Shown here one piece after another: positions 1 to 11,393 of a DNA stretch of 11,393 nucleotides; the first letter of the stretch is position 1, and the number at the start of each line of letters is the position of its first letter. The notes below the pieces were generated by a model, which was given only the letters and a program-made list of their open reading frames with translations, was not told where the DNA came from and made no database searches. Both the position numbers and the translations under genes were made by a program. The DNA is from a bacterium (GTDB taxonomy: Bacteria > UBP15 > UBA6099 > DSWB01). The stretch spans positions 1 through 11,393 of the forward strand of contig JAGUYV010000369.1 in NCBI GenBank assembly GCA_020061125.1, read 5' to 3'.

Positions 1-588
1 AGATTCCAGAGCCAGCGCGCTGCGGGCGATCACCACGGGCGCGGGGGCTTCGCCCTGCCCGTCTCCGGCGGCGCGCGCTTTCCAGGCCAGTTCGAGAGTC
101 ATGCCCGGCGCCGGTTTGTCCTTGTCCACAAGCTGCGGGCAAAGGGCCGCAACGGTTTTGGCGTCAATCCCGAAATCGCTGGACGCTCCCTTGTCCGCAG
201 GCGACCACAGGGACAAAACAAGCGGTTTCTGCCCGAGCGCCCACACGCCCGGGGCCTGGGTTGAGGCCTCCATCACAACGGGACCGTCCGCGACTGGCAG
301 AGAGGCATGGGCCACGAATGCGTCCGCCTGCTTGAATTGCAGCCAGTTGCCCTCGGCTGGGGCGCACACGGCAAACAGCGATTCGGGCGCGGGGCACGCC
401 AGCGCAACCAGGGGCTTGAATTCGGGCGCGCCGCCGTCTTCCGGATAAATGATTTGATCTGTGAGCGCGCACTGCACGGGCATGGGATCGTCTTTTTCCC
501 CTGCCGATGCCGCCACAGGCGCCGTGCACGATAAGACCAAGGTGAGCAATCCCGCCGCGGCTGCGCGCAAAGCTCTGGTAGTGTTCAT
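1..588 (-). CDS. Exported protein of unknown function, 3' end outside window
   Basis: I do not recognise the family. The frame opens with ATG at 588-586 and stays open for 196 codons to the left edge, so the C-terminus is missing. A strong Shine-Dalgarno (GGGGAGGG) sits about 8 bases upstream of the ATG. The N-terminus is a signal peptide: Arg5 and Arg8, a hydrophobic stretch at residues 9-20, then a likely signal peptidase I site at Ala27-Ser28-Ala29. Cys21 follows Val-Leu-Ser, a poor lipobox, so a lipoprotein is possible but less likely. The mature part has cysteines at 40, 65, 75 and 150, which could form disulfides outside the cytoplasm, and it is rich in Ala and Pro. It has its own promoter (636-663), so it is probably not part of the K+ operon. 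That it is a gene is well supported; its function is unknown. Confidence 0.85.
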   Translation of the reverse strand, partial: MNTTRALRAAAAGLLTLVLSCTAPVAASAGEKDDPMPVQCALTDQIIYPEDGGAPEFKPLVALACPAPESLFAVCAPAEGNWLQFKQADAFVAHASLPVADGPVVMEASTQAPGVWALGQKPLVLSLWSPADKGASSDFGIDAKTVAALCPQLVDKDKPAPGMTLELAWKARAAGDGQGEAPAPVVIARSALALES

Positions 589-635
589 TGAAAAACCCTC
601 CCCGCGAAATGTCGCTTCTCCGTTGCCTTGATCCC

Positions 636-680: not shown

Positions 681-2132
681 TCACGATTTGCCGCACAGGT
701 CCCGGATGATTTTCCAGATGCTTATGAACACGATGAAGAATTCGAGGCGGCCGAGAAACATGCCTGCGGTTTCCGTCCAGAGCACCGCCGGGGGCGCGGA
801 TGCGGAGGTCACGCCCACGGAAAGGCCCACTGTGCTCAATGAGGATGCAGACTCGAACATGGCTTCGGGGATTCCGAACCCGTATGCCGTGAGAATTCCC
901 GTGGATACAACGAACAATATCAAATAAAGATACAGAAAAAGCGACGCCTGGCGGATCCGGTCATCCTTGATGTAGTCCCTGTTCTCTGCCTGCCAGATAA
1001 AATTCTCGACCACGGCCGTTCGCGGCAGGAAGAATCGTTTCACTTCCCAGATCAGCGCTTTGAAGAGAAGATAGGCCCTGTATTGCTTGAGGCCGCCCGC
1101 CGTGGAACAGGACCCGCCACCCACGATCATCAGCACGATCAGAACAAACCATGCCATGGGCGGCCATGCGTTGTAGAACACCGTGGAAAACCCCGTGGTG
1201 GTGAGCGCGGACACGGTCTCGAACAGGGCGACGCGCACAGCCTTTCCGAACATGGGGTAAATGCTGCGGAAAGTTGAATAAAAAACCAGAAAAGCGCCAA
1301 CCGGAATCAGCAGAGCCATGACCCGTATCTCACCGTTCCTGGCCACGGATTTGAATTTGCCCTTGAGCATGAGGTATGCGGTGAGAAAATTCATGTTCCC
1401 GAGAATCATGAGAGGAATAGAAACCGCCTCCACTGCGGGCGAATCCCAGTAGCCGATATTTTCCGGCATGGTGGAGAATCCGCCCGTGGACACCGCAGCG
1501 AAGGAATGGTTGACCGCGTCGAAAGCGCCCATGCCCGCAAGCATGTACGCAGCGGTCCCGCACACGGCATAACCCATGTAAATGGTCATGACCAGCTTGG
1601 CGGATTTCCTCACATGAGGCGCCAGTTGATCGGTGCGGCCTTCGGCGAAGGCTAAGCCCGTGCCCGCAGGCCCGGCAATGGATGAGATCATGATGATGGC
1701 CAGCCCCGCGCCGCCCGCCAGTTGAATGATGCTGCGCCACAACAGAATTGCCGCGGGCGCACGGGTCACATCCACAACGCTCAAGCCCGTTGTGGTCCAG
1801 CCGCTTACGGATTCGAACACCGCCTGGGTGAAATTCAAATGGATCGCCGTCATGAATGGAATGGCCGAAAAGACAATCAGTGCCGCCCACCCGAACAGGA
1901 CGATCACCCCCCCTTCAAGCAGGGAGATTGATTGCGAACACAGGGAGCGGCCGCCAAGCCAGAAAATCAGTCCCAGAGCGCACAGCGCGGCCGACGGGAT
2001 GGCGAAATGCCGCCACAGCGCCCACTGCCCGGCGTCGAAAAAACACAGCAGCAGGGGAGTAAGCAGCAGCGGGCTTGCCAGCGCCATCAAGGCGCCGGTG
2101 TAGCACAGCATGGTGGCGTACTGTTTTTTCAT
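681..2132 (-). CDS. trkH: Potassium uptake protein TrkH
   Basis: Integral membrane K+-translocating subunit of a Trk system, expected to work with the TrkA-type RCK proteins encoded just before it. The 483 residues match the usual TrkH length. All four pore loops are visible, each with its filter glycine: TTTGLS (113-118), STGGFS (215-220), TTTGFS (311-316) and STVGLS (433-438). The Gly/Ser-rich gating loop in the third repeat (VGGGSCSTAGGLK, about 337-349) and the conserved C-terminal MFLGRLEFF (458-466) are also present. Hydrophobic segments at about 9-33, 45-60 and 73-98 agree with the two extra N-terminal helices of TrkH plus four helix-pore-helix repeats. The ATG lies 19 bases after the trkA stop, with a weak GGA upstream. 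It is the last gene of the operon. Family assignment is firm; ion specificity is inferred from the family. Confidence 0.95.
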   Translation of the reverse strand: MKKQYATMLCYTGALMALASPLLLTPLLLCFFDAGQWALWRHFAIPSAALCALGLIFWLGGRSLCSQSISLLEGGVIVLFGWAALIVFSAIPFMTAIHLNFTQAVFESVSGWTTTGLSVVDVTRAPAAILLWRSIIQLAGGAGLAIIMISSIAGPAGTGLAFAEGRTDQLAPHVRKSAKLVMTIYMGYAVCGTAAYMLAGMGAFDAVNHSFAAVSTGGFSTMPENIGYWDSPAVEAVSIPLMILGNMNFLTAYLMLKGKFKSVARNGEIRVMALLIPVGAFLVFYSTFRSIYPMFGKAVRVALFETVSALTTTGFSTVFYNAWPPMAWFVLIVLMIVGGGSCSTAGGLKQYRAYLLFKALIWEVKRFFLPRTAVVENFIWQAENRDYIKDDRIRQASLFLYLYLILFVVSTGILTAYGFGIPEAMFESASSLSTVGLSVGVTSASAPPAVLWTETAGMFLGRLEFFIVFISIWKIIRDLCGKS

Positions 2133-2151
2133 ATTATCCGGGACCCGGCCG

Positions 2152-2814
2152 TCACCGCCCGCCGGTCAGCAGCTTGATGACTCTGCCCATGTTTTCCGGC
2201 AGAGTGATGACCACAAGCCGGTCTCCTGCCGCAAGGACCGTTCCGCCTCGCGGAATTATCGGACTGCCGTTTCTGGTGACGATAGCGATCAGCGAATTTT
2301 CCGGCAGTGCAATATCGGACAGCGCACGGCCGGCTACGGGGGAAATGTCCCGGAGCACGACTTCCGTGAGGTTCACTTTGCCCTCTTCCAGGGGAACAAG
2401 GTTAATGATGTCCTCGAATCCGGTTCTCTGCTCAATGAGGCTGGTGATGATTCTGGTCGTGGAGAACGCCGCGCTGACCCCGAGCTTGCGGAAGACCTCT
2501 TCATTGTCGGGATCATTGACCATGGCCAGAGTGCGCTGAACATTAAACCGGATCCTGGCCTGCTGGCAGATGGCGAGGTTGTCCTGGTCATGGCCCGTGA
2601 CGGCGAGAATCGCGTCGCAGCGTTCCGCGCCGCATTCTTCGAGAATTTGCAGGTCCGTACCGTCGCCGTGAACGATGACCGCTTTGAGACGCCGCGCCAG
2701 CCAGGCGCACTCCGCGGAATCCCGGTTCACGATGGTCAGGCTGTACCCTTTTGAGATAAACGCTCGGCAGAGGAAATAGACGACCTTGCCGCCGCCTACG
2801 ATAAGCACATTCAT
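2152..2814 (-). CDS. trkA: TrkA-type RCK subunit (N and C domains)
   Basis: Cytoplasmic nucleotide-sensing subunit that gates TrkH. Residues about 1-125 are a Rossmann RCK-N (TrkA-N) domain and about 140-220 an RCK-C (TrkA-C) domain, with the typical hydrophobic run LPENSLIAIV and ending near LAAGDRLVVITLPEN. The nucleotide loop reads G7-G-G9-K-V-V12, so the third glycine of GxGxxG is valine. A conserved acidic position ends strand 2 (IVNRD, D33). The start overlaps the stop of the preceding TrkA-N gene as ATGA (2814-2811), which implies translational coupling and fixes the start. Together with that short protein it makes up 367 residues, against about 458 in the tandem-RCK TrkA of E. coli. 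The pair most likely forms a mixed ring under TrkH. Confidence 0.93.
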   Translation of the reverse strand: MNVLIVGGGKVVYFLCRAFISKGYSLTIVNRDSAECAWLARRLKAVIVHGDGTDLQILEECGAERCDAILAVTGHDQDNLAICQQARIRFNVQRTLAMVNDPDNEEVFRKLGVSAAFSTTRIITSLIEQRTGFEDIINLVPLEEGKVNLTEVVLRDISPVAGRALSDIALPENSLIAIVTRNGSPIIPRGGTVLAAGDRLVVITLPENMGRVIKLLTGGR

Positions 2815-3254
2815 GCGTTATGCGCCCCCTTTGGCGGCGTGGATTCGAGCGAAGCCATGAACGCGCGGCCAGCCAGCGTTGCTGGACAGATTGTCTCGAT
2901 TCCCAGCGCCCGGTAAATGTCTTCTTTTCGGGGATCCTCGATGCGGGCCACGACCCGCGGAACTTTGAACACGGTGGCGGCGATCTGCGCCGCCATGAGG
3001 TTCACATTGTCGTTGTCCGTGACGGCCACGACCAGATCCGCACTCACTGTTTTGGCCTGCTGAAGCACGGCGAACTCCGTGGCGTCGCCCTCGATTTTGT
3101 ATCCGCTGAACCTCGAGTCCAGGGCGTCAAAAGCGGACTGTCTGCTGTCCACTGCCACAACGCTGTGGCCCGCGGCGCTCATCCCGGACGCGAGATTCGC
3201 CCCCAGCCGCCCGCAGCCGATCACGATCACGAACAACATTTTGTCACCGGCCAT
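2811..3254 (-). CDS. Short TrkA-N (RCK-N only) protein
   Basis: A single Rossmann RCK-N domain of 147 residues with an intact nucleotide loop (GCGRLG, about 13-18) and an Asp ending strand 2 (VAVDSR), expected to bind NAD(H) or adenine nucleotides. There is no RCK-C domain; after the core only a short Gly/Pro-containing tail remains. The frame is open further upstream, but those starts would lie inside the preceding gene. The ATG at 3254 lies 10 bases after the response-regulator stop with GGTGA close by. A second ATG at 3239 (protein beginning MLFVIVIG, 142 residues) has an equally good GGTG and begins exactly at strand 1, so the true start could be either. It overlaps the next trkA by ATGA. 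Inferred role: partner RCK subunit for the TrkA encoded downstream, regulating TrkH. Confidence 0.9.
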   Translation of the reverse strand: MAGDKMLFVIVIGCGRLGANLASGMSAAGHSVVAVDSRQSAFDALDSRFSGYKIEGDATEFAVLQQAKTVSADLVVAVTDNDNVNLMAAQIAATVFKVPRVVARIEDPRKEDIYRALGIETICPATLAGRAFMASLESTPPKGAHNA

Positions 3255-3264
3255 GTTTTCACCG

Positions 3265-3948
3265 TCACTTTCCGGATGCGCCGTCGTCAAGCACAATCTC
3301 GCCCTCGCGCTTCAAACGGACCGTACGCTCCAGATTCTTGTGAGCGGGCCGGTACGCCGGATCCACAGCCAGGGCCGCTCGGTAGTATTTCTGCGCCTGG
3401 AGCGAATCGCCAAGGATTTCCGCCGCCGCGCCCAGCAGGTTGTAAGCGCCGGGCCGGGCCGTATCCAGAGCCACGGCGCGCTCAAACAGCGGGATCGCCG
3501 CGGCGCAGCGGCCTTCGGATATGTAGCGTTTGCCAAGCTCCATCAGGGATGCGTAATCCTGCGCTTTTGCTTCGTCGAGCTTGTCCCTGTCCAGCACGCT
3601 GCGGACCAGATCCCGGACTTCCTGCGGTGAGAACGGCTTTTGCAGAAAGTCAACAGCGCCCAGTTTCATGGCCTCGACTGCGGAATCCACGGACCCGTAG
3701 GCCGTGATGATGATCACCTTGATCTCGGGCCGTGTGAGCCGCAACCGGCGCAGGACTTCCATGCCGTCCATGCCGGGCATCTTCAAATCCAGAAGCACGA
3801 TGCTGAATTCCGCATCCTGGATCTTCTGCAACGCTTCTTCGCCGTTCATGGCCGTTTCTGTTTCGAGTTCCAATGCCTCGAAGGCCTGGCCGAGCGTCAT
3901 TCGGATGTTTTTTTCATCATCCACAATCAAAGCAAGGTTCCGTTTCAT
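3265..3948 (-). CDS. Response regulator with TPR output domain (REC-TPR)
   Basis: The receiver domain spans about 4-118 with acid pocket D10/D11, phospho-acceptor D54 (in LLDLKMP), the switch Thr82 and Lys104 (in QKPF), so all key residues are present. The receiver resembles those of NtrC-type regulators, but no AAA+ or DNA-binding domain follows. Instead residues about 131-200 form two tetratricopeptide repeats (alanine/leucine pattern, with DxxxxPxAYN- and DPAYRPAHKNL-like ends) and then a charged tail. The start overlaps the kinase stop as ATGA (3948-3945) and has a strong GGAGG 7 bases upstream, so the kinase of the same operon is the likely phosphodonor. With no DNA-binding domain the output should be a protein contact; neighbouring RCK proteins and transporters are obvious candidate partners, but this is inference. 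Confidence 0.92.
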   Translation of the reverse strand: MKRNLALIVDDEKNIRMTLGQAFEALELETETAMNGEEALQKIQDAEFSIVLLDLKMPGMDGMEVLRRLRLTRPEIKVIIITAYGSVDSAVEAMKLGAVDFLQKPFSPQEVRDLVRSVLDRDKLDEAKAQDYASLMELGKRYISEGRCAAAIPLFERAVALDTARPGAYNLLGAAAEILGDSLQAQKYYRAALAVDPAYRPAHKNLERTVRLKREGEIVLDDGASGK

Positions 3949-5792
3949 GGCGCATCCTCCATTCGTTGTTGATCCGCAACAGGCAGGGAAAAGGTGAAGG
4001 CGCTGCCCCTGCCGGGAACGGACTCGACCCAGATCGTTCCTCCGTGCGCGCGCACGATTTCCCGGCAGATGGCCAGGCCAAGCCCGGTTCCCGCGGGCTG
4101 CCCGCCGCTCTCAACGCGCACGAATTTATCAAAGATTCTCGACTGGTATTCGTGAGGGATACCCGCGCCGTTGTCCCGCACGCAAATGTGAACCTGCTCC
4201 CCGGCGCGGGCCGCGCTCACCGCGATGCGGCCGCCCGGCGAGGTGTACCGCAACGCGTTGGAAACAAGATTCGTGATCACCCAGGTGATTTTGTTTGCGT
4301 CCGCATTCACGCAGGGCATATCGCCCGGAGAATCCGATCCCAGCTCGATGGATTTCTCTTGCGCCTGCCGCTCCATGACATGCAGGGTTTTGCGGATCAG
4401 CTCGGCCGCGGAAACGCGCTCCAGGCTCATGCTGACCTTGCCGGACTCGATGCGGGACAAGTCGAGCAGGTCGCTGATGATGGCCTTGAGGCGCGCAAGC
4501 TCTTCGTGCGCGGCCAGGAGCAGTTCTCTTTCCCTCGCGTCAAGCTTTTCCAGCGCTTTCTCCATAAGCAGGCCCACGCTCATTTCTATGGTGGTGAGCG
4601 GCGTGCGCAGCTCATGGGATGCGGTGGATATGAAATCGCTTTTCAGGCGGTCCAATTCCTTGAGCCTGGTAATGTCTCGCAGCAGGAGAACAACGCCCTG
4701 AAGCCCTCCTTCCCCGTCCGTGATCGTCGTGACGGAATACAGGTAATGCGCTTCGCGGCCGTCCCTTTTCACAGTGAGCAGATTCCCGTGCTCCGCGGAC
4801 GCGGGTGCGGCTTCGGATTCCACGGCTGCTTTGAGACGGATGAACAAGTCCTCGCTCTTCACGCTTTCCAGGAAATGCCGTCCCTCGGCGCGCGCGGCGT
4901 CCACATCCAGAATGGCCGCGGCCACGGGATTGATGGTCGTGATCTTCAGATCCGAGTCCACGACCACCACCCCATCGTCTATCTCCCGCACAATGGCTTC
5001 GCTCTTGCTCTTTTCCTCAAGTATTTTCCGGAAATTCAGCTCGTGAAATCCACGCAGCCTTTTGACCATCTCGTTGAACTCGCCCGCCACAACGCCGAGT
5101 TCATCGGAAGAGCGCGCCTGCACTTCCACATCGTAATTCCCTTCCGACACCGTTTTTGTGGCCTCGATCATCTGGTGGAGCGGCCTAACCAGCAAATTTG
5201 ACAAAAAAAGACTGAAAACGACTCCGCCCCCAATAGCCGCGGCGCCAATCATCAACAGTGATGCAACCGCTCTTTGCGATAGGTTGCGCGCCCTGTCGCT
5301 GGCTCCGTACATCGTCTGCTGATTGAGTTCCCCGAGCCGCATGCATGAACCTCGGACCGCGAAAAACCGATTAGAAACAGTCTTGTGATAGAAGGTTTTC
5401 CGGGCCTTGATGTCATTTGTGTCCATGGATTCGAGCGCGGAAACAGAGGTGAGGTATGCGGCGTAATCTTTTTCGATTCCGGCAAGGATTCGCTCTTCCC
5501 CTTTTATGGTGATGTTGTCCTTGGCGCGGCCCAGCCATTCGGAGAAGCGGATTTCGTTTTCCTTGAACTGTGCGGCGGCGCGGGAGTGTCCCAGAATCAT
5601 GAGAAGCGTTGCGCTGTCCTGCCGCTCGATGGAATCAATCATGTTTTCCGCGGCGAGAATGCTCTTGTAGTTTTCCTTGAGAATCGCGTCGCTGGCGCTG
5701 CCGAGTTCGAGCAGGCTCGCGAACGCCCACGCCAGCACCGCCGCCAGCAGGCATAGAATCAGGCCGTAGCCCAGAAGGATCTTTTTCCTCAA
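3945..5792 (-). CDS. Membrane sensor histidine kinase, KinB-like
   Basis: Order of parts over 615 residues: first membrane helix (about 5-27), periplasmic four-helix-type region (about 30-175) ending in the hallmark LNQQTM (156-161), second membrane helix (about 176-200), HAMP (about 200-252), PAS (about 265-375), HisKA with phosphorylatable H393 in SHELRTP, and HATPase with N-box NLVSNALRYT (508-517), G1 DNGAGI (540-545) and G2 GTGLGLAI (568-575). All catalytic motifs are intact, so it should be an active kinase. The annotated start is a TTG with no convincing Shine-Dalgarno; an in-frame stop lies 21 bases upstream, which limits other choices. An ATC four codons upstream is the only alternative that would restore the longer N-terminus. 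The stop overlaps the response-regulator start. The ligand is unknown. Confidence 0.94.
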   Translation of the reverse strand: MRKKILLGYGLILCLLAAVLAWAFASLLELGSASDAILKENYKSILAAENMIDSIERQDSATLLMILGHSRAAAQFKENEIRFSEWLGRAKDNITIKGEERILAGIEKDYAAYLTSVSALESMDTNDIKARKTFYHKTVSNRFFAVRGSCMRLGELNQQTMYGASDRARNLSQRAVASLLMIGAAAIGGGVVFSLFLSNLLVRPLHQMIEATKTVSEGNYDVEVQARSSDELGVVAGEFNEMVKRLRGFHELNFRKILEEKSKSEAIVREIDDGVVVVDSDLKITTINPVAAAILDVDAARAEGRHFLESVKSEDLFIRLKAAVESEAAPASAEHGNLLTVKRDGREAHYLYSVTTITDGEGGLQGVVLLLRDITRLKELDRLKSDFISTASHELRTPLTTIEMSVGLLMEKALEKLDARERELLLAAHEELARLKAIISDLLDLSRIESGKVSMSLERVSAAELIRKTLHVMERQAQEKSIELGSDSPGDMPCVNADANKITWVITNLVSNALRYTSPGGRIAVSAARAGEQVHICVRDNGAGIPHEYQSRIFDKFVRVESGGQPAGTGLGLAICREIVRAHGGTIWVESVPGRGSAFTFSLPVADQQRMEDAP

Positions 5793-5826
5793 GGTGAAGT
5801 TGATGTCGGATCACATCCCGCGCCCG

Positions 5827-6492
5827 CTATTTTTCGTCCCTGATTTTGAGCAGGCTGGATTCGCGGCCGATCATGACAAGGATGTCGTTCGGCAACACCT
5901 TGTAATTGGGGCCGGGCAGGAATTCGAACCGGGTGGCGGTGGGGTCCTTGACCGCGATTACGAACGCGCCGAACCGGTGGCGCAGGTTCAGATCTATGAA
6001 GGAATGGCCGATGAACGAGGCCGGGGGCGTGATGTCCATGACACGGTAGTCTTCGGCGAGAGGCACGAAGTCCAGAAGGTTCGGGTTGATGATGTGCGCG
6101 GCCACGCGACGCGCGGTTTCGCGTTCGGGGAAGATGATCTCGGACGCGCCCAGGGACTCGAGGATCTCGGCGTGATCTTCGTTCAGCGCTTTGCAGCGAA
6201 TGGTTTTCACGCCGATTTTCTTGAGGTGCAGCGTGCACAGAACGCTGGCTTCGAGGCTGTCGCCCAGGCTGACAAGAGCCTCGTCGAACGCCGCCGTGAC
6301 GAGCGAGGCCAGGGATTTGAAATCCTTGGCGTCGAGGATCATGGCGCGCTGCACATGCTCGCTGATGGCGTTCACGCGCTCCTCGTCACTGTCCAGGGCC
6401 AGGACATCGCAGTACCGGGCCAGGTCCCGCGCCAGTTCGCTGCCGAACTGCCCCAGGCCAATCACGCATATCTGTTTTCTCGCTTTTTTCAT
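5827..6492 (-). CDS. ktrA: KtrA, RCK regulatory subunit of the Ktr K+ transporter
   Basis: A 221-residue cytoplasmic RCK protein. RCK-N covers about 7-125 with an intact nucleotide loop G12-L-G14-Q-F-G17 and D34 closing strand 2; RCK-C covers about 140-221. This is the usual KtrA size and layout. In the family, an octameric ring of KtrA binds ATP/ADP or NAD(H) and gates a KtrB dimer at the inner face of the membrane. The frame stays open 140 codons further upstream, but that extension lies inside ktrB and is not protein-like. The ATG at 6492 overlaps the ktrB stop as ATGA, which sets the start and couples translation. A 34-base gap separates it from the kinase gene. Direct pairing with KtrB is well supported by position. 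Confidence 0.95.
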   Translation of the reverse strand: MKKARKQICVIGLGQFGSELARDLARYCDVLALDSDEERVNAISEHVQRAMILDAKDFKSLASLVTAAFDEALVSLGDSLEASVLCTLHLKKIGVKTIRCKALNEDHAEILESLGASEIIFPERETARRVAAHIINPNLLDFVPLAEDYRVMDITPPASFIGHSFIDLNLRHRFGAFVIAVKDPTATRFEFLPGPNYKVLPNDILVMIGRESSLLKIRDEK

Positions 6493-7868
6493 CCTATCAT
6501 CACCACACCTTTGGGATAACGAATGTTCACATGGGTCTGCGGGATAATCCACAGCGCCAGGGTCAGAGGCCCGAGGCGGCCCACGAACATCGTAAGTATG
6601 ATCCACAGCTTGCCGAAGGCGGTCAGGTCCGGGGTGATGCCCGCGGACAGCCCCACGGTGCCGAACGCGGAAATCTGCTCGAAAACGATACGGCTCATAT
6701 CCGCGCCGTTCGCGGCAGGCTCCGTCGCCATGAGCAGGGCCATGCCCGCCAGGTTCCAGATAAGCGCCAGGGCCAGAAGCAGGGCCGTGCGCGAAACCAG
6801 ATCTCCGGGAATTCTGTTGCTGAATAGCCTTACCTCGCGCTGGCCGCGCAGCCCGGCCCGGATCTGCGCCAGCCAGATGGCCAGCGAAGTGGTCTTCACG
6901 CCGCCCGCGCACGACCCCGGGGAACCGCCGATGAACATCAGCAGCACAAGCACGAACAGCGACGCCAGGGGCAGCGCTCCGATGTCCACGGTATTAAAGC
7001 CCGCGGTGCGCGCGGTCACGGACTGGAACAGCGCATTGAACGCCTTCTCAAACGCGCCCTTCTCACCACCCGTCAGCCCGAACACAAGCATGAACGCCGC
7101 CCCCGCTGTGATCAGGATTCCCGTCATCCACAAAACCGTGCGCGCATGCAAGGAAAACAGCATGGCCCTCGGCTCACGATTCCTCGACGCCGCCCACTGC
7201 GCGTTTCTCCATAATTCATACAGCACCGTGTGTCCCAGCCCGCCCAGCACAATGAGGCCCATGATCGCAACCATTGCAATACGCATGCTCCGGTGGCCGA
7301 TCAGGTTGTCGGAATAGATGGAGAACCCCGCGTTGCAGAAAGCGGATATGGAATGAAACACCGCAGAAAACAGGGCATGACCCTGGCTGTGCACGGCTCG
7401 CATTGAAAGAAACAGCACAACCGCCCCGGCGAACTCGATGGCGAAGGTGAGCTTGAGGATGCCGCCGAACGCGGTCCTGAAATCATGGGCCGCGTCGCGC
7501 TGAAAAATCGAGTCCTGCACCGCGGCCTGGGAAGTGAGCGACATGCGCCGACCGAATATCCGAAACGCCAGGGCCGCAAAAGTCATGACGCCCAGCCCGC
7601 CAGCCTGAATCAGAATCACAATCACAACCTGGCCGAAGCGCGTGAAATCACGCCCGGTGTCCACGACCGTCAGCCCTGTGACGCACACTGCGGAGGTGGC
7701 GGTGAACAGCGCATCGAGGAAACCGACGCTGCCCTGCGCGTGCGACCACGGCAGCCACAGCAGCAGCGATCCGATGCCGATCAGCGCCGCAAAACTTCCC
7801 GCAAGAAGCGCCTGCGGGGATTGCGCCCGAATCTTGAATTTCCTTGCCGCTTCACTTCTATAGTTCAT
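6489..7868 (-). CDS. ktrB: KtrB, K+-translocating membrane subunit
   Basis: A 459-residue SKT-family transporter without the two extra N-terminal helices of TrkH, which together with the adjoining ktrA points to KtrB. Four pore loops are visible with filter glycines: CVTGLT (62-67), CNAGFS (178-183), RTAGFN (287-292) and GTVGLS (403-408). The intramembrane gating loop GGSPGSCAGGVKT lies at 314-326 and the conserved FVGRLGPLT at 428-436. Eight membrane helices in four helix-pore-helix repeats are expected. Family members are usually Na+-dependent K+ importers of the inner membrane. The ATG overlaps the end of the Cys-rich gene by 11 bases (7858-7868); AGGA lies about 9 bases upstream, inside that gene. 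Confidence 0.95.
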   Translation of the reverse strand: MNYRSEAARKFKIRAQSPQALLAGSFAALIGIGSLLLWLPWSHAQGSVGFLDALFTATSAVCVTGLTVVDTGRDFTRFGQVVIVILIQAGGLGVMTFAALAFRIFGRRMSLTSQAAVQDSIFQRDAAHDFRTAFGGILKLTFAIEFAGAVVLFLSMRAVHSQGHALFSAVFHSISAFCNAGFSIYSDNLIGHRSMRIAMVAIMGLIVLGGLGHTVLYELWRNAQWAASRNREPRAMLFSLHARTVLWMTGILITAGAAFMLVFGLTGGEKGAFEKAFNALFQSVTARTAGFNTVDIGALPLASLFVLVLLMFIGGSPGSCAGGVKTTSLAIWLAQIRAGLRGQREVRLFSNRIPGDLVSRTALLLALALIWNLAGMALLMATEPAANGADMSRIVFEQISAFGTVGLSAGITPDLTAFGKLWIILTMFVGRLGPLTLALWIIPQTHVNIRYPKGVVMIG

Positions 7869-8358
7869 GGCATTTCATCCTGTAATGCGGGCACTGCGCA
7901 TGTCCGGTGAGGCACCACGCCTGCATGTGGTGCTCCGCGAGCACCATACGATCGTTGTGCGCGCCGCACACGGACAGAACCACATTGTTGCCCCTCGTGC
8001 AATGCAGCAGCGGACAGACCGACTCGCACAGTTCGCCGACAGCGATCGCCTGCGCGGGATCCGCGTCCGTGCGCGCGGGCAGAAACGCAACGAGCAACCG
8101 CGCCTGTTTCCAATCGGCAAGGTGATGCAACGCGTCCAGCGTTGGGTGCGGGGTGATGAGGCATACGGCTTCCTGTGCGATGCCGCACTCGGCCGCTCGC
8201 TTCATGGTTCCGGTAATCTCCTGCATGGCGGCTTCGGGATCATTGGAGTAGATGCCCACCAGCGCCCCGTGGCTTGCGGCCGCATGCTGCAGGCCCGAAA
8301 ACACGCCGGTGCACTTTGTCCATTTCCCTGTCTGTTCTTCCCGAATGTAAAGTAGCAT
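7858..8358 (-). CDS. Cys/His-rich small protein of unknown function, operon leader gene
   Basis: I do not recognise the family. The 166 residues begin with an alternating strand/helix pattern (strands near 2-6, 33-37, 64-69 and 87-93; helices near 41-58 and 73-84), followed by a cysteine-rich C-terminus: C111, C115, C120, C131, C149, C156 and C163, with H119, H134, H143, H144, H153, H158 and H164. This is typical of a metal or Fe-S site, but the ligand cannot be told. There is no signal peptide or membrane helix, so it should be cytoplasmic. I chose the ATG at 8358: GGAG lies 6 bases upstream, while the ATG at 8376 would begin about 5 bases after the predicted sigma-54 start and has no ribosome site. 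It is the first gene of the operon and overlaps ktrB by 11 bases, so a sensing or regulatory role in K+ uptake is plausible, not shown. Confidence 0.85.
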   Translation of the reverse strand: MLLYIREEQTGKWTKCTGVFSGLQHAAASHGALVGIYSNDPEAAMQEITGTMKRAAECGIAQEAVCLITPHPTLDALHHLADWKQARLLVAFLPARTDADPAQAIAVGELCESVCPLLHCTRGNNVVLSVCGAHNDRMVLAEHHMQAWCLTGHAQCPHYRMKCHEL

Positions 8359-8364
8359 GGCATT

Positions 8365-8368
8365 CTCC
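8365..8368 (-). promoter_or_regulatory. Ribosome binding site that decides the leader-gene start
   Basis: GGAG on the minus strand, 6 bases before the ATG at 8358 and within about 16 bases of the predicted sigma-54 transcript start (about 8381). The upstream in-frame ATG at 8376 has only adenines and no Shine-Dalgarno before it. Confidence 0.65.
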
Positions 8369-8391
8369 GCCGGCATTTTTCACAAATAAAA

Positions 8392-8407
8392 TGCAAGCCG
8401 CATGCCA
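8392..8407 (-). promoter_or_regulatory. Sigma-54 (-24/-12) promoter of the K+ transport operon
   Basis: The minus strand reads TGGCATGCGGCTTGCA. Against the sigma-54 consensus TGGCACR-N4-TTGCW, all specified positions fit except the sixth base (T for C), including the essential GG and GC with exact 10-base spacing between them. Transcription would start near 8381, leaving a 23-base leader with a Shine-Dalgarno before the ATG at 8358. The activator it needs is probably the NtrC-type regulator encoded directly upstream (8602-9936). Confidence 0.82.
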
Positions 8408-8456
8408 TGCCCGGCCCGCGCGAAAAATGCGCGGACGCGCACCACCGGCATGCCAT
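8400..8456 (-). repeat. Direct repeat ATGGCATGC upstream of and into the -24 box
   Basis: The 9-base word ATGGCATGC occurs at 8456-8448 and again at 8408-8400 on the minus strand, 48 bases apart. The second copy includes the -24 element of the sigma-54 promoter; the first copy extends to a perfect palindrome GGCATGCC (8447-8454) and is not followed by a -12 element. It may be a binding site for a further regulator that could block sigma-54 polymerase, or a remnant of duplication. Confidence 0.45.
8414..8436 (-). other. GC-rich hairpin just upstream of the sigma-54 promoter
   Basis: On the minus strand GTCCGCGC and GCGCGGGC can pair (8 pairs, one of them G-T) around a 7-base loop ATTTTTC. It lies between the upstream palindromes and the promoter. 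No T-run follows on the minus strand, so it is not a standard terminator for the response-regulator transcript. It may affect DNA shape or slow read-through; a chance structure in GC-rich DNA is possible. Confidence 0.35.
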
Positions 8457-8560: not shown

Positions 8561-8598
8561 GCATTTCATTTTGCAATGCGCTTTTCAGAATGAAATGC
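8561..8598. repeat. 10-base perfect inverted repeat GCATTTCATT, putative UAS pair
   Basis: GCATTTCATT (8561-8570) and its exact complement AATGAAATGC (8589-8598) are separated by 18 bases, starting 4 bases beyond the response-regulator stop codon. Arm centres are 28 bases apart, near -185 and -213 from the predicted start. The octamer ATTTCATT is shared with the palindrome at 8492-8506. As RNA it could fold into a hairpin, but it is A/T-rich with an 18-base loop and no T-run after it, so a pair of activator sites fits better than a terminator. Confidence 0.5.
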
Positions 8599-9975: not shown

Positions 9976-11393
9976 TTATTGTCCGGCCTCGCCGGGCAGC
10001 GGAATTTCGATGATAAACTCCGTGCCTTTTCTGATTTCGCTGTCCACGCGGATTTCGCCCCTGTGCGCGTCCACGATTTCCTTTGCGATGGTGAGTCCCA
10101 GGCCCAGCGAACCTGGCTCGCGGATTTTGTCCAGCGATGTGAAGGGCAGGAACAGGCGCTTGAGATCCTCGCGCGCGATGCCAGCGCCCGTGTCCGTAAT
10201 CGTGATTACGGCGCGGTCGCGCGTTTTCTCCAGCGCCAGGCTCACCGAGCCGCCGGGCCGCGTGTAGCGCAGCGCATTGCCCACGATATTCGTGACCACC
10301 CAGGGAAACTTGACTGGATCCGCGTCCGCGAACACGGGCGCAGCGGGCATGCTCTGCTTCCATTCGATGCCCTTGTCGCGCGCCTGCGCGGCCAGGGGCT
10401 TGAGCGCCGCGTCGAGCAGGCCCGCCAGATCAATGCGCAGGCGGCGCAGCATGAGCGTGGGCGCGGCGTCCCGCGCCGCCTCGATCAGTTCCGTGACCAG
10501 GCCCGAAAGCGTGGCGCAATCCGCCTTGAGCATGCGCAGCAGATCGTCGGTCTCCTCGTCCCGGCCCTTGAACGATTCGTTGATCAGGTTCACGGACATG
10601 GTCAACGAAGTGACCGGTGTTTTCAACTGGTGCGAGAACATGGACACGAACTTGCGGCGCGACTCCTCGAACTGTTTCTGTTCGGTCACATCCCAGAAGA
10701 TCAGCAGATACCCTTCGGTGTCTCCTTCAGGGGACTTGAAAGGCAGGAGTCTTGGGCTGTAGGTTTTGTCTTCTCCATCTCTGCGGAGCGTCATTTCCGG
10801 GAGGCTGGCCTCGGCTTGCGCGCCCGGGTTCATGGCGGGCAGAAGCGCGGCGCGTGCGCTCTCGGGCAGGCCGTCGTGGAACAGGTTCAGCGCGCCGCCC
10901 TCGCGCCCGGCGTTGAGCAGTTCCCTGCCGGTGCGGTTCATGCCCAGGATGTTCAGGTCCGTGTCCAGCAGGGCCAGGCCTTCGGCCACCTCCTCGATCA
11001 CGAACGCGAGGCGCGCCTGCAGGCGCGTGAATTTCCTGGCCTGTTCGTCCTCGTAACTGCTCAAGCGGTCGAGCAGATCGTCAAGCTCCTTGCGCAGTCG
11101 CAGAATTTCGTCCACGGGCTGGCCCGCCTCGGGTTCGCCAGTTTCCGCGGGCTTGAGCGCGCTGTGCAGATCTCCGGCCACGGACAAAATGGGACCGGAA
11201 ATTCTATCTGCCGCCACCAGGGCGAAGACCACCAGCGCGGCCATGGCCACGGCCAGGCACACGCTTGCGGCGCCCACCATGAGCCGCGCCGTGGAGCGCG
11301 TGCGGCGCTCGTGCCGGAACATGGCGTCTTCGTTCAGCGCAATGAGGTCTCCGACCTGCTTGTAGAGCGGAGACAGGAGCGCGATGCGTTCGC
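9976..11393 (-). CDS. Membrane sensor histidine kinase, KinB-like, 5' end outside window
   Basis: The frame runs into the right edge (last full codon 11391-11389), so the 471 visible residues lack the N-terminus. An ATG at 11322 looks like a start but belongs to the periplasmic signature LNEDAM, parallel to LNQQTM in the kinase at 3945-5792, so the first membrane helix and most of the periplasmic domain must lie beyond the edge. Visible parts: end of the periplasmic region (1-35), membrane helix (about 36-60), HAMP-like linker, PAS (about 129-245), HisKA with H254 in SHQLKTP, and HATPase with NIVGNALRYT, DTGAGI (400-405) and GLGLTI. The residue after the phospho-His is Gln, not the usual Glu. 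Its partner is the sigma-54 response regulator immediately downstream. Confidence 0.95.
   Translation of the reverse strand, partial: ERIALLSPLYKQVGDLIALNEDAMFRHERRTRSTARLMVGAASVCLAVAMAALVVFALVAADRISGPILSVAGDLHSALKPAETGEPEAGQPVDEILRLRKELDDLLDRLSSYEDEQARKFTRLQARLAFVIEEVAEGLALLDTDLNILGMNRTGRELLNAGREGGALNLFHDGLPESARAALLPAMNPGAQAEASLPEMTLRRDGEDKTYSPRLLPFKSPEGDTEGYLLIFWDVTEQKQFEESRRKFVSMFSHQLKTPVTSLTMSVNLINESFKGRDEETDDLLRMLKADCATLSGLVTELIEAARDAAPTLMLRRLRIDLAGLLDAALKPLAAQARDKGIEWKQSMPAAPVFADADPVKFPWVVTNIVGNALRYTRPGGSVSLALEKTRDRAVITITDTGAGIAREDLKRLFLPFTSLDKIREPGSLGLGLTIAKEIVDAHRGEIRVDSEIRKGTEFIIEIPLPGEAGQ

Follow-up and report, generated by a model that had tools for sequence, protein, structure and literature searches.

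A compact, probably sigma-54-driven operon for two K+ importers, built as a new arrangement of known modules

The window analysed in the present study is an entire contig of 11,393 bases (G000:C193) from a metagenome-assembled genome, which is 79% complete and whose phylum is represented by seven genomes in our collection. On its minus strand eight genes, spanning from a Cys-rich protein to TrkH (8376 to 681), constitute what is probably a compact operon for two K+ importers driven by sigma-54, in which known parts are newly arranged and the transporter Ktr is followed by the histidine kinase HK1, the response regulator (RR) RR1 and a two-subunit Trk. Our best explanation, which we regard as rather probable, is that of a sigma-54-controlled K+ uptake operon built from two recurring modules, with RR1 acting on the Trk gate. 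Gene content and order were established by calls of open reading frames (ORFs) and by searches against Pfam, NCBIfam and the sequences of the Protein Data Bank (PDB). They bear out the core of the original prediction, made without database searches, namely that two K+ systems and a two-component pair lie in one compact run headed by a sigma-54 promoter, TGGCATGCGGCTTGCA. In the direction of transcription the order is HK2, EBP, an intergenic region of 225 bases, Cys-rich protein, KtrB, KtrA, HK1, RR1, TrkA-N, TrkA and TrkH:

9976-11393, minus strand: HK2, sensor histidine kinase with transmembrane part, PAS_4, HisKA and HATPase_c; truncated at the N-terminal sensor part, where the contig stops.
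8602-9936, minus strand: EBP, sigma-54 activator of the NtrC family with receiver, AAA+ domain bearing GAFTGA, and Fis-type helix-turn-helix.
8561-8598, minus strand: 38-bp palindrome GCATTTCATT-N18-AATGAAATGC, abutting the EBP gene, between it and the promoter.
8407-8392, minus strand: sigma-54 promoter TGGCATGCGGCTTGCA, with -24 GG and -12 GC 10 nt apart.
8376/8358-7858, minus strand: Cys-rich orphan protein, first gene of the run; 172 aa from ATG 8376, 166 aa from ATG 8358.
7868-6489, minus strand: KtrB, pore subunit of Ktr, matching PDB KtrB chains (E 6e-75).
6492-5827, minus strand: KtrA, regulatory subunit with RCK_N and RCK_C, matching KtrA/KtrC chains.
5792-3945, minus strand: HK1, membrane histidine kinase with extracytoplasmic sensor, HAMP, PAS, HisKA and HATPase_c.
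3948-3265, minus strand: RR1, receiver (D10, D11, D54, T82, K104) followed by TPR repeats, with no DNA-binding domain.
3254-2811, minus strand: TrkA-N, 147 aa, RCK_N only, TM1088A type; best PDB matches 3L4B_A and 2G1U.
2814-2152, minus strand: TrkA, RCK_N and RCK_C, TM1088B type; best PDB match 3L4B_C.
2132-681, minus strand: TrkH, pore subunit, matching 3PJZ (E 3e-39) and 69% identical to TrkH of genome G006.

According to the ORF coordinates the junctions range from an overlap of 11 nt (Cys-rich protein/KtrB) to a gap of 34 nt (KtrA-HK1); between these lie overlaps of 4 nt (KtrB/KtrA, HK1/RR1 and TrkA-N/TrkA) and gaps of 10 nt (RR1-TrkA-N) and 19 nt (TrkA-TrkH). Terminator-like sites were absent from the minus-strand junctions within the run, their frequency in the window not exceeding that in shuffled sequence, and an Rfam search of the window returned neither a riboswitch nor any other RNA.

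Sigma-54 control is indicated by the promoter and by its surroundings. TGGCATGCGGCTTGCA is the only match to TGGCAY-N5-TTGCW without mismatch in the window; in order-1 Markov simulations a perfect site was found with a chance of 0.00095 for the intergenic length on the same strand, and of 0.033 when both strands of the entire window are counted. The host genome encodes rpoN. Transcription is predicted to start ~12 nt downstream of the promoter (about 8381), which would leave only ~5 nt before ATG 8376 and a leader of ~23 nt including GGAG before ATG 8358, so that the latter is preferred as start and gives the Cys-rich protein a probable length of 166 aa. The head promoter had been recognised in the original prediction, whereas the two genes directly upstream, lying outside 681-8407, had been missed: EBP is the likely activator of the promoter and HK2 the likely kinase of EBP. 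The palindrome, whose centre lies ~200 bp upstream of the predicted transcription start, is the likely EBP binding site. An inverted repeat of this kind is expected in this stretch with a chance of about 0.026, and the exact-arm pattern occurs a single time in the whole genome, which fits the expectation for a dedicated activator site. The inner kinase/regulator pair is not supported as the promoter's regulator, because RR1 carries no DNA-binding domain. Between palindrome and promoter (8429-8442, minus strand) a short GC hairpin is followed by ATTTTT and may terminate the transcript of HK2 and EBP.

The strongest evidence for sigma-54 control of Ktr, and for the membership of the Cys-rich protein, comes from the sequence of a genome of another phylum, G225. 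Here an EBP (41% identity, GSFTGA), a perfect sigma-54 site (L121:4891), a homologue of HK1 (48% over 607 aa), a counterpart of the Cys-rich protein, KtrB and KtrA follow one another in that order, spread over two contigs that have about 84 bases in common at their ends (L121, G225:C12, 3349-7146; L122, G225:C7, 1-2374); the arrangement thus recurs independently, with Ktr under apparent sigma-54 control. In 478 kb of loci from other relatives only one further perfect site was detected, within a coding gene. The Cys-rich protein has no family in Pfam, NCBIfam or PHROGs, and its G225 homologue no match among PDB sequences. Four Cys are common to both, within a conserved CPxLH...VCGAxxDRMVL...C...C, and in both genomes in which it was found the gene stands just before KtrB; the motif is a possible metal or Fe-S site. 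An AlphaFold single-sequence model of the protein reached a pLDDT of 48, and no fold search was based on it. A degenerate receiver in the N-terminal half was considered and rejected, as profile comparison gave no support.

Both importers are present, as originally predicted. KtrB carries all four selectivity-filter glycines, read from the sequence, in the motifs VTGLT, NAGFS, RTAGFN and GTVGLS, and KtrA possesses GxGxxG as GLGQFG in RCK_N, together with RCK_C; by pore and RCK criteria the pair is a KtrAB transporter. The four glycines are likewise all present in TrkH, and apart from KtrB and TrkH no gene of the TrkH family was found in what is assembled of the genome. What had to be corrected is the reading of the two TrkA genes: a short subunit with RCK_N only and a subunit with RCK_N and RCK_C, linked to TrkH, with 3L4B as best match, identify them by homology as one two-subunit gate like Thermotoga TM1088A/B (PDB 3L4B), which would by the same homology form an octameric mixed ring. 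The loci L108 and L114, whose genomes we take to be Thermotoga-type, have no receiver-TPR gene. In the two-subunit Trk of T. maritima (TM1088A/TM1088B ring with TM1089; PDB 3L4B, PMC4380455) the short RCK_N-only and the RCK_N-RCK_C genes overlap as they do here, with a TrkH partner, but the Trk of the window differs in having genes for a histidine kinase and a receiver-TPR protein ahead of it; a response regulator is not mentioned in PMC4380455. Similarly, KtrAB of B. subtilis and Vibrio (PDB 4J7C, 8K1S) shares full-length KtrB and KtrA with filter motifs, whereas the Ktr of the window is headed by the Cys-rich protein and a sigma-54 promoter.

The co-location of Ktr and Trk, described in the original prediction as normally separate loci, is not itself strange, as they are adjacent in four other genomes. 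KtrB-KtrA-TrkA-TrkH are contiguous in G003, G004 and G005, which belong to the same taxonomic order as the host, with an ordinary one-piece TrkA and no kinase, and in G024, outside the host phylum, the Trk module is directly followed by KtrB and KtrA. G006 has KtrBA on one contig and the module HK1-RR1-TrkA-N-TrkA-TrkH (65-76% identity) on another. The complete eight-gene order, which the original prediction had proposed to look for in related genomes, was found in no other genome examined, and a scan of genome contigs with poor patterns returned only the known relative; the order is a composite of two modules, each of which recurs elsewhere. From the arrangements in G003-G006 and G024, the operon of the window seems to derive from a KtrBA cluster in which the two-subunit module has replaced a classical TrkAH.

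For a broader view of the Trk module, 386 genomes spread over the domain were searched for TrkH of the window type (cut about 344 bits or more, next best 231), which 14 genomes clearly contain. In the phylum of one of these, presumably Thermotogota, 73 of 103 genomes have a match to this type. Gene order was read in 29 TrkH loci. In 23 of them RR-TrkA-N-TrkA-TrkH are contiguous and co-directional, with a receiver-TPR protein of the RR1 type directly before TrkA-N, which is short in all 23; no RR is present in L067, L068 and L071, where TrkA-N is of full length. As the loci are related by descent, these counts are not independent. RR1 has the full set of phosphorylation residues in its receiver, and nearly all receiver-TPR proteins compared retain the Lys and an acidic residue at the phospho-acceptor position. 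A kinase of the HK1 type precedes the RR in the window and in G006, G030, G177, G024, G385 and G121, and none was detected next to the RR in the Thermotogota loci; these and L066 hold the receiver-TPR gene beside TrkA-N with neither kinase nor EBP adjacent. This position directly before TrkA-N/TrkA/TrkH, also where a kinase is missing, suggests that the Trk gate is directly controlled by phosphorylation. At L060:9770-10255, L061:6318-6686 and L062:202-657 an extra stand-alone receiver, absent from the window, separates the HK1-type kinase of the module from its receiver-TPR protein. In L108 the position immediately ahead of TrkA-N, elsewhere that of the receiver-TPR gene, is occupied by a gene for a rhomboid-protease-like membrane protein (3911-4579), assigned by eye.

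HK1 as a whole, including its sensor, is conserved in K+-transporter-linked kinases of other lineages; residues 1-250, the sensor region, are 32-47% conserved among the K+-linked kinases and not in HK2. HK2 was considered as a paralogue sharing this sensor and rejected, with only 21% over 99 residues. The sensor resembles KinB_sensor weakly (E 0.003, below the cut-off). The specificity regions of kinases and receivers were inspected, and no pairing was concluded.

We propose the following sequence of events. An extracytoplasmic signal, for which low K+ or osmotic upshift are candidates, would cause HK2, perhaps also HK1, to phosphorylate EBP. Bound to the palindrome (8561-8598), EBP would loop to the -24/-12 promoter (8407-8392) and open the sigma-54 polymerase. 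Judged from the spacing, a single transcript may then comprise the Cys-rich protein, KtrB, KtrA, HK1, RR1, TrkA-N, TrkA and TrkH, by which Ktr and two-subunit Trk would be made together. Finally, phosphorylated RR1 would use its TPR part to act on the TrkA-N/TrkA ring and alter TrkH gating, a role assigned to it because it has no DNA-binding domain and recurs beside the two-subunit TrkA also in loci with no neighbouring kinase. By these steps the amount of importer would be set by transcription and Trk activity by HK1-RR1. More tentatively, and with less than even confidence, the receiver-TPR protein may gate two-subunit Trk of the TM1088A/B type directly, perhaps replacing the RCK_C missing from the short subunit.

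Several points weigh against this explanation. The contact between RR and Trk is inferred from linkage, and L069, L108 and L114 have a short TrkA-N with no RR, which is hence not indispensable for the ring. HK2 is incomplete, so that signal and HK2-EBP pairing rest on adjacency. The intergenic regions of Trk-module loci in other genomes yielded no sigma-54 site, and such control is thus not general for the module. With regard to the single transcript, the similarly packed plrSR-trkAH cluster of Bordetella has internal promoters (PMC13001219).

Three alternatives were considered. Two or more transcription units, with sigma-54 driving Cys-KtrB-KtrA and an internal promoter in the 3' end of ktrA driving HK1-RR1-TrkA-N-TrkA-TrkH as a mere neighbour, would agree with the widest junction lying between KtrA and HK1, with the TTG start of HK1, which has no clear Shine-Dalgarno sequence, with the separate HK1...TrkH module of G006, and with those plrSR-trkAH promoters; however, no sigma-70-like site was found near 5792 and the spacing at the other junctions is typical of a single operon, and we consider this division rather unlikely. 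Still somewhat less credit is given to HK1-RR1 as a relay that passes the signal to EBP or further partners rather than controlling Trk directly, where HK1 would phosphorylate both RR1 and EBP and RR1 would serve as phosphate sink or intermediate. In G225 the sigma-54 activator is the only response regulator adjoining the HK1 homologue, HK1 and EBP receivers fall in one broad NtrC/RR1-like set, and the extra receivers by the kinase in L060, L061 and L062 are as in relays; yet the Thermotogota loci and L066, with the receiver-TPR gene beside TrkA-N and no kinase or EBP, point to the transporter as partner, and a TPR output is a protein-binding part. That TGGCATGCGGCTTGCA is a chance match and other promoters serve the operon is highly improbable: although a perfect match arises somewhere in 3% of window-sized random sequences, this one is placed between the EBP gene with its palindrome and the first gene, fits start codon and leader, and has its counterpart in G225.

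Bacterial K+ uptake is known to be controlled by KdpDE, by c-di-AMP and by nucleotides that bind to RCK rings. Two more layers are indicated by the present locus and related ones: transcription of Ktr by way of sigma-54, recurring in two phyla, and a receiver-TPR protein that in many lineages is linked with the ring of the two-subunit Trk. HK1 and RR1 are not a KdpDE-type pair, as HK1 lacks KdpD/UspA domains and RR1 an OmpR-type DNA-binding domain. Sigma-54 control of K+ uptake, regarded in the original prediction as unusual, is known from D. vulgaris, where the sigma-54 regulator DVU3334 targets kdpFABC (PMC3333781, PMC4641369); there, as is proposed for the window, a sigma-54-dependent response regulator controls K+ uptake genes, but it concerns the Kdp ATPase and a KdpD-like kinase with UspA domain, here Ktr/Trk. 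In proteobacterial ntrYX/plrSR-trkAH (PMC13001219) two-component genes likewise directly precede trkA-trkH, with an overlap of 4 nt; a regulator of the NtrX/PlrR type there stands before a one-piece TrkA, whereas the window has the receiver-TPR protein RR1, TrkA in two genes, and Ktr in addition, and a packed six-gene run of the ntrYX/plrSR type was shown not to be one operon (PMC13001219). In a literature search that covered few subscription journals, no report was found of Ktr under sigma-54 control, nor of a receiver-TPR protein as partner of the two-subunit Trk. The wiring as a whole thus appears undescribed, its parts being known, and the novel, testable part appears to be the link of receiver-TPR protein and two-subunit Trk. 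If true, the output of a two-component system would be the gate of an ion transporter instead of transcription, and this would be widespread in Thermotogota and several little-known lineages; a result on gating by RR1 would, either way, change the understanding of the gate of a transporter that is structurally solved and physiologically little explained.

Downstream of TrkH, window positions 1-590 (minus strand) hold the start of a gene for a secreted or lipoprotein-like protein, which is probably the next transcription unit; it is preceded by a sigma-70-like match, TTGAGC-16-TATAAT, at 663-636, such matches being no more frequent than expected by chance.

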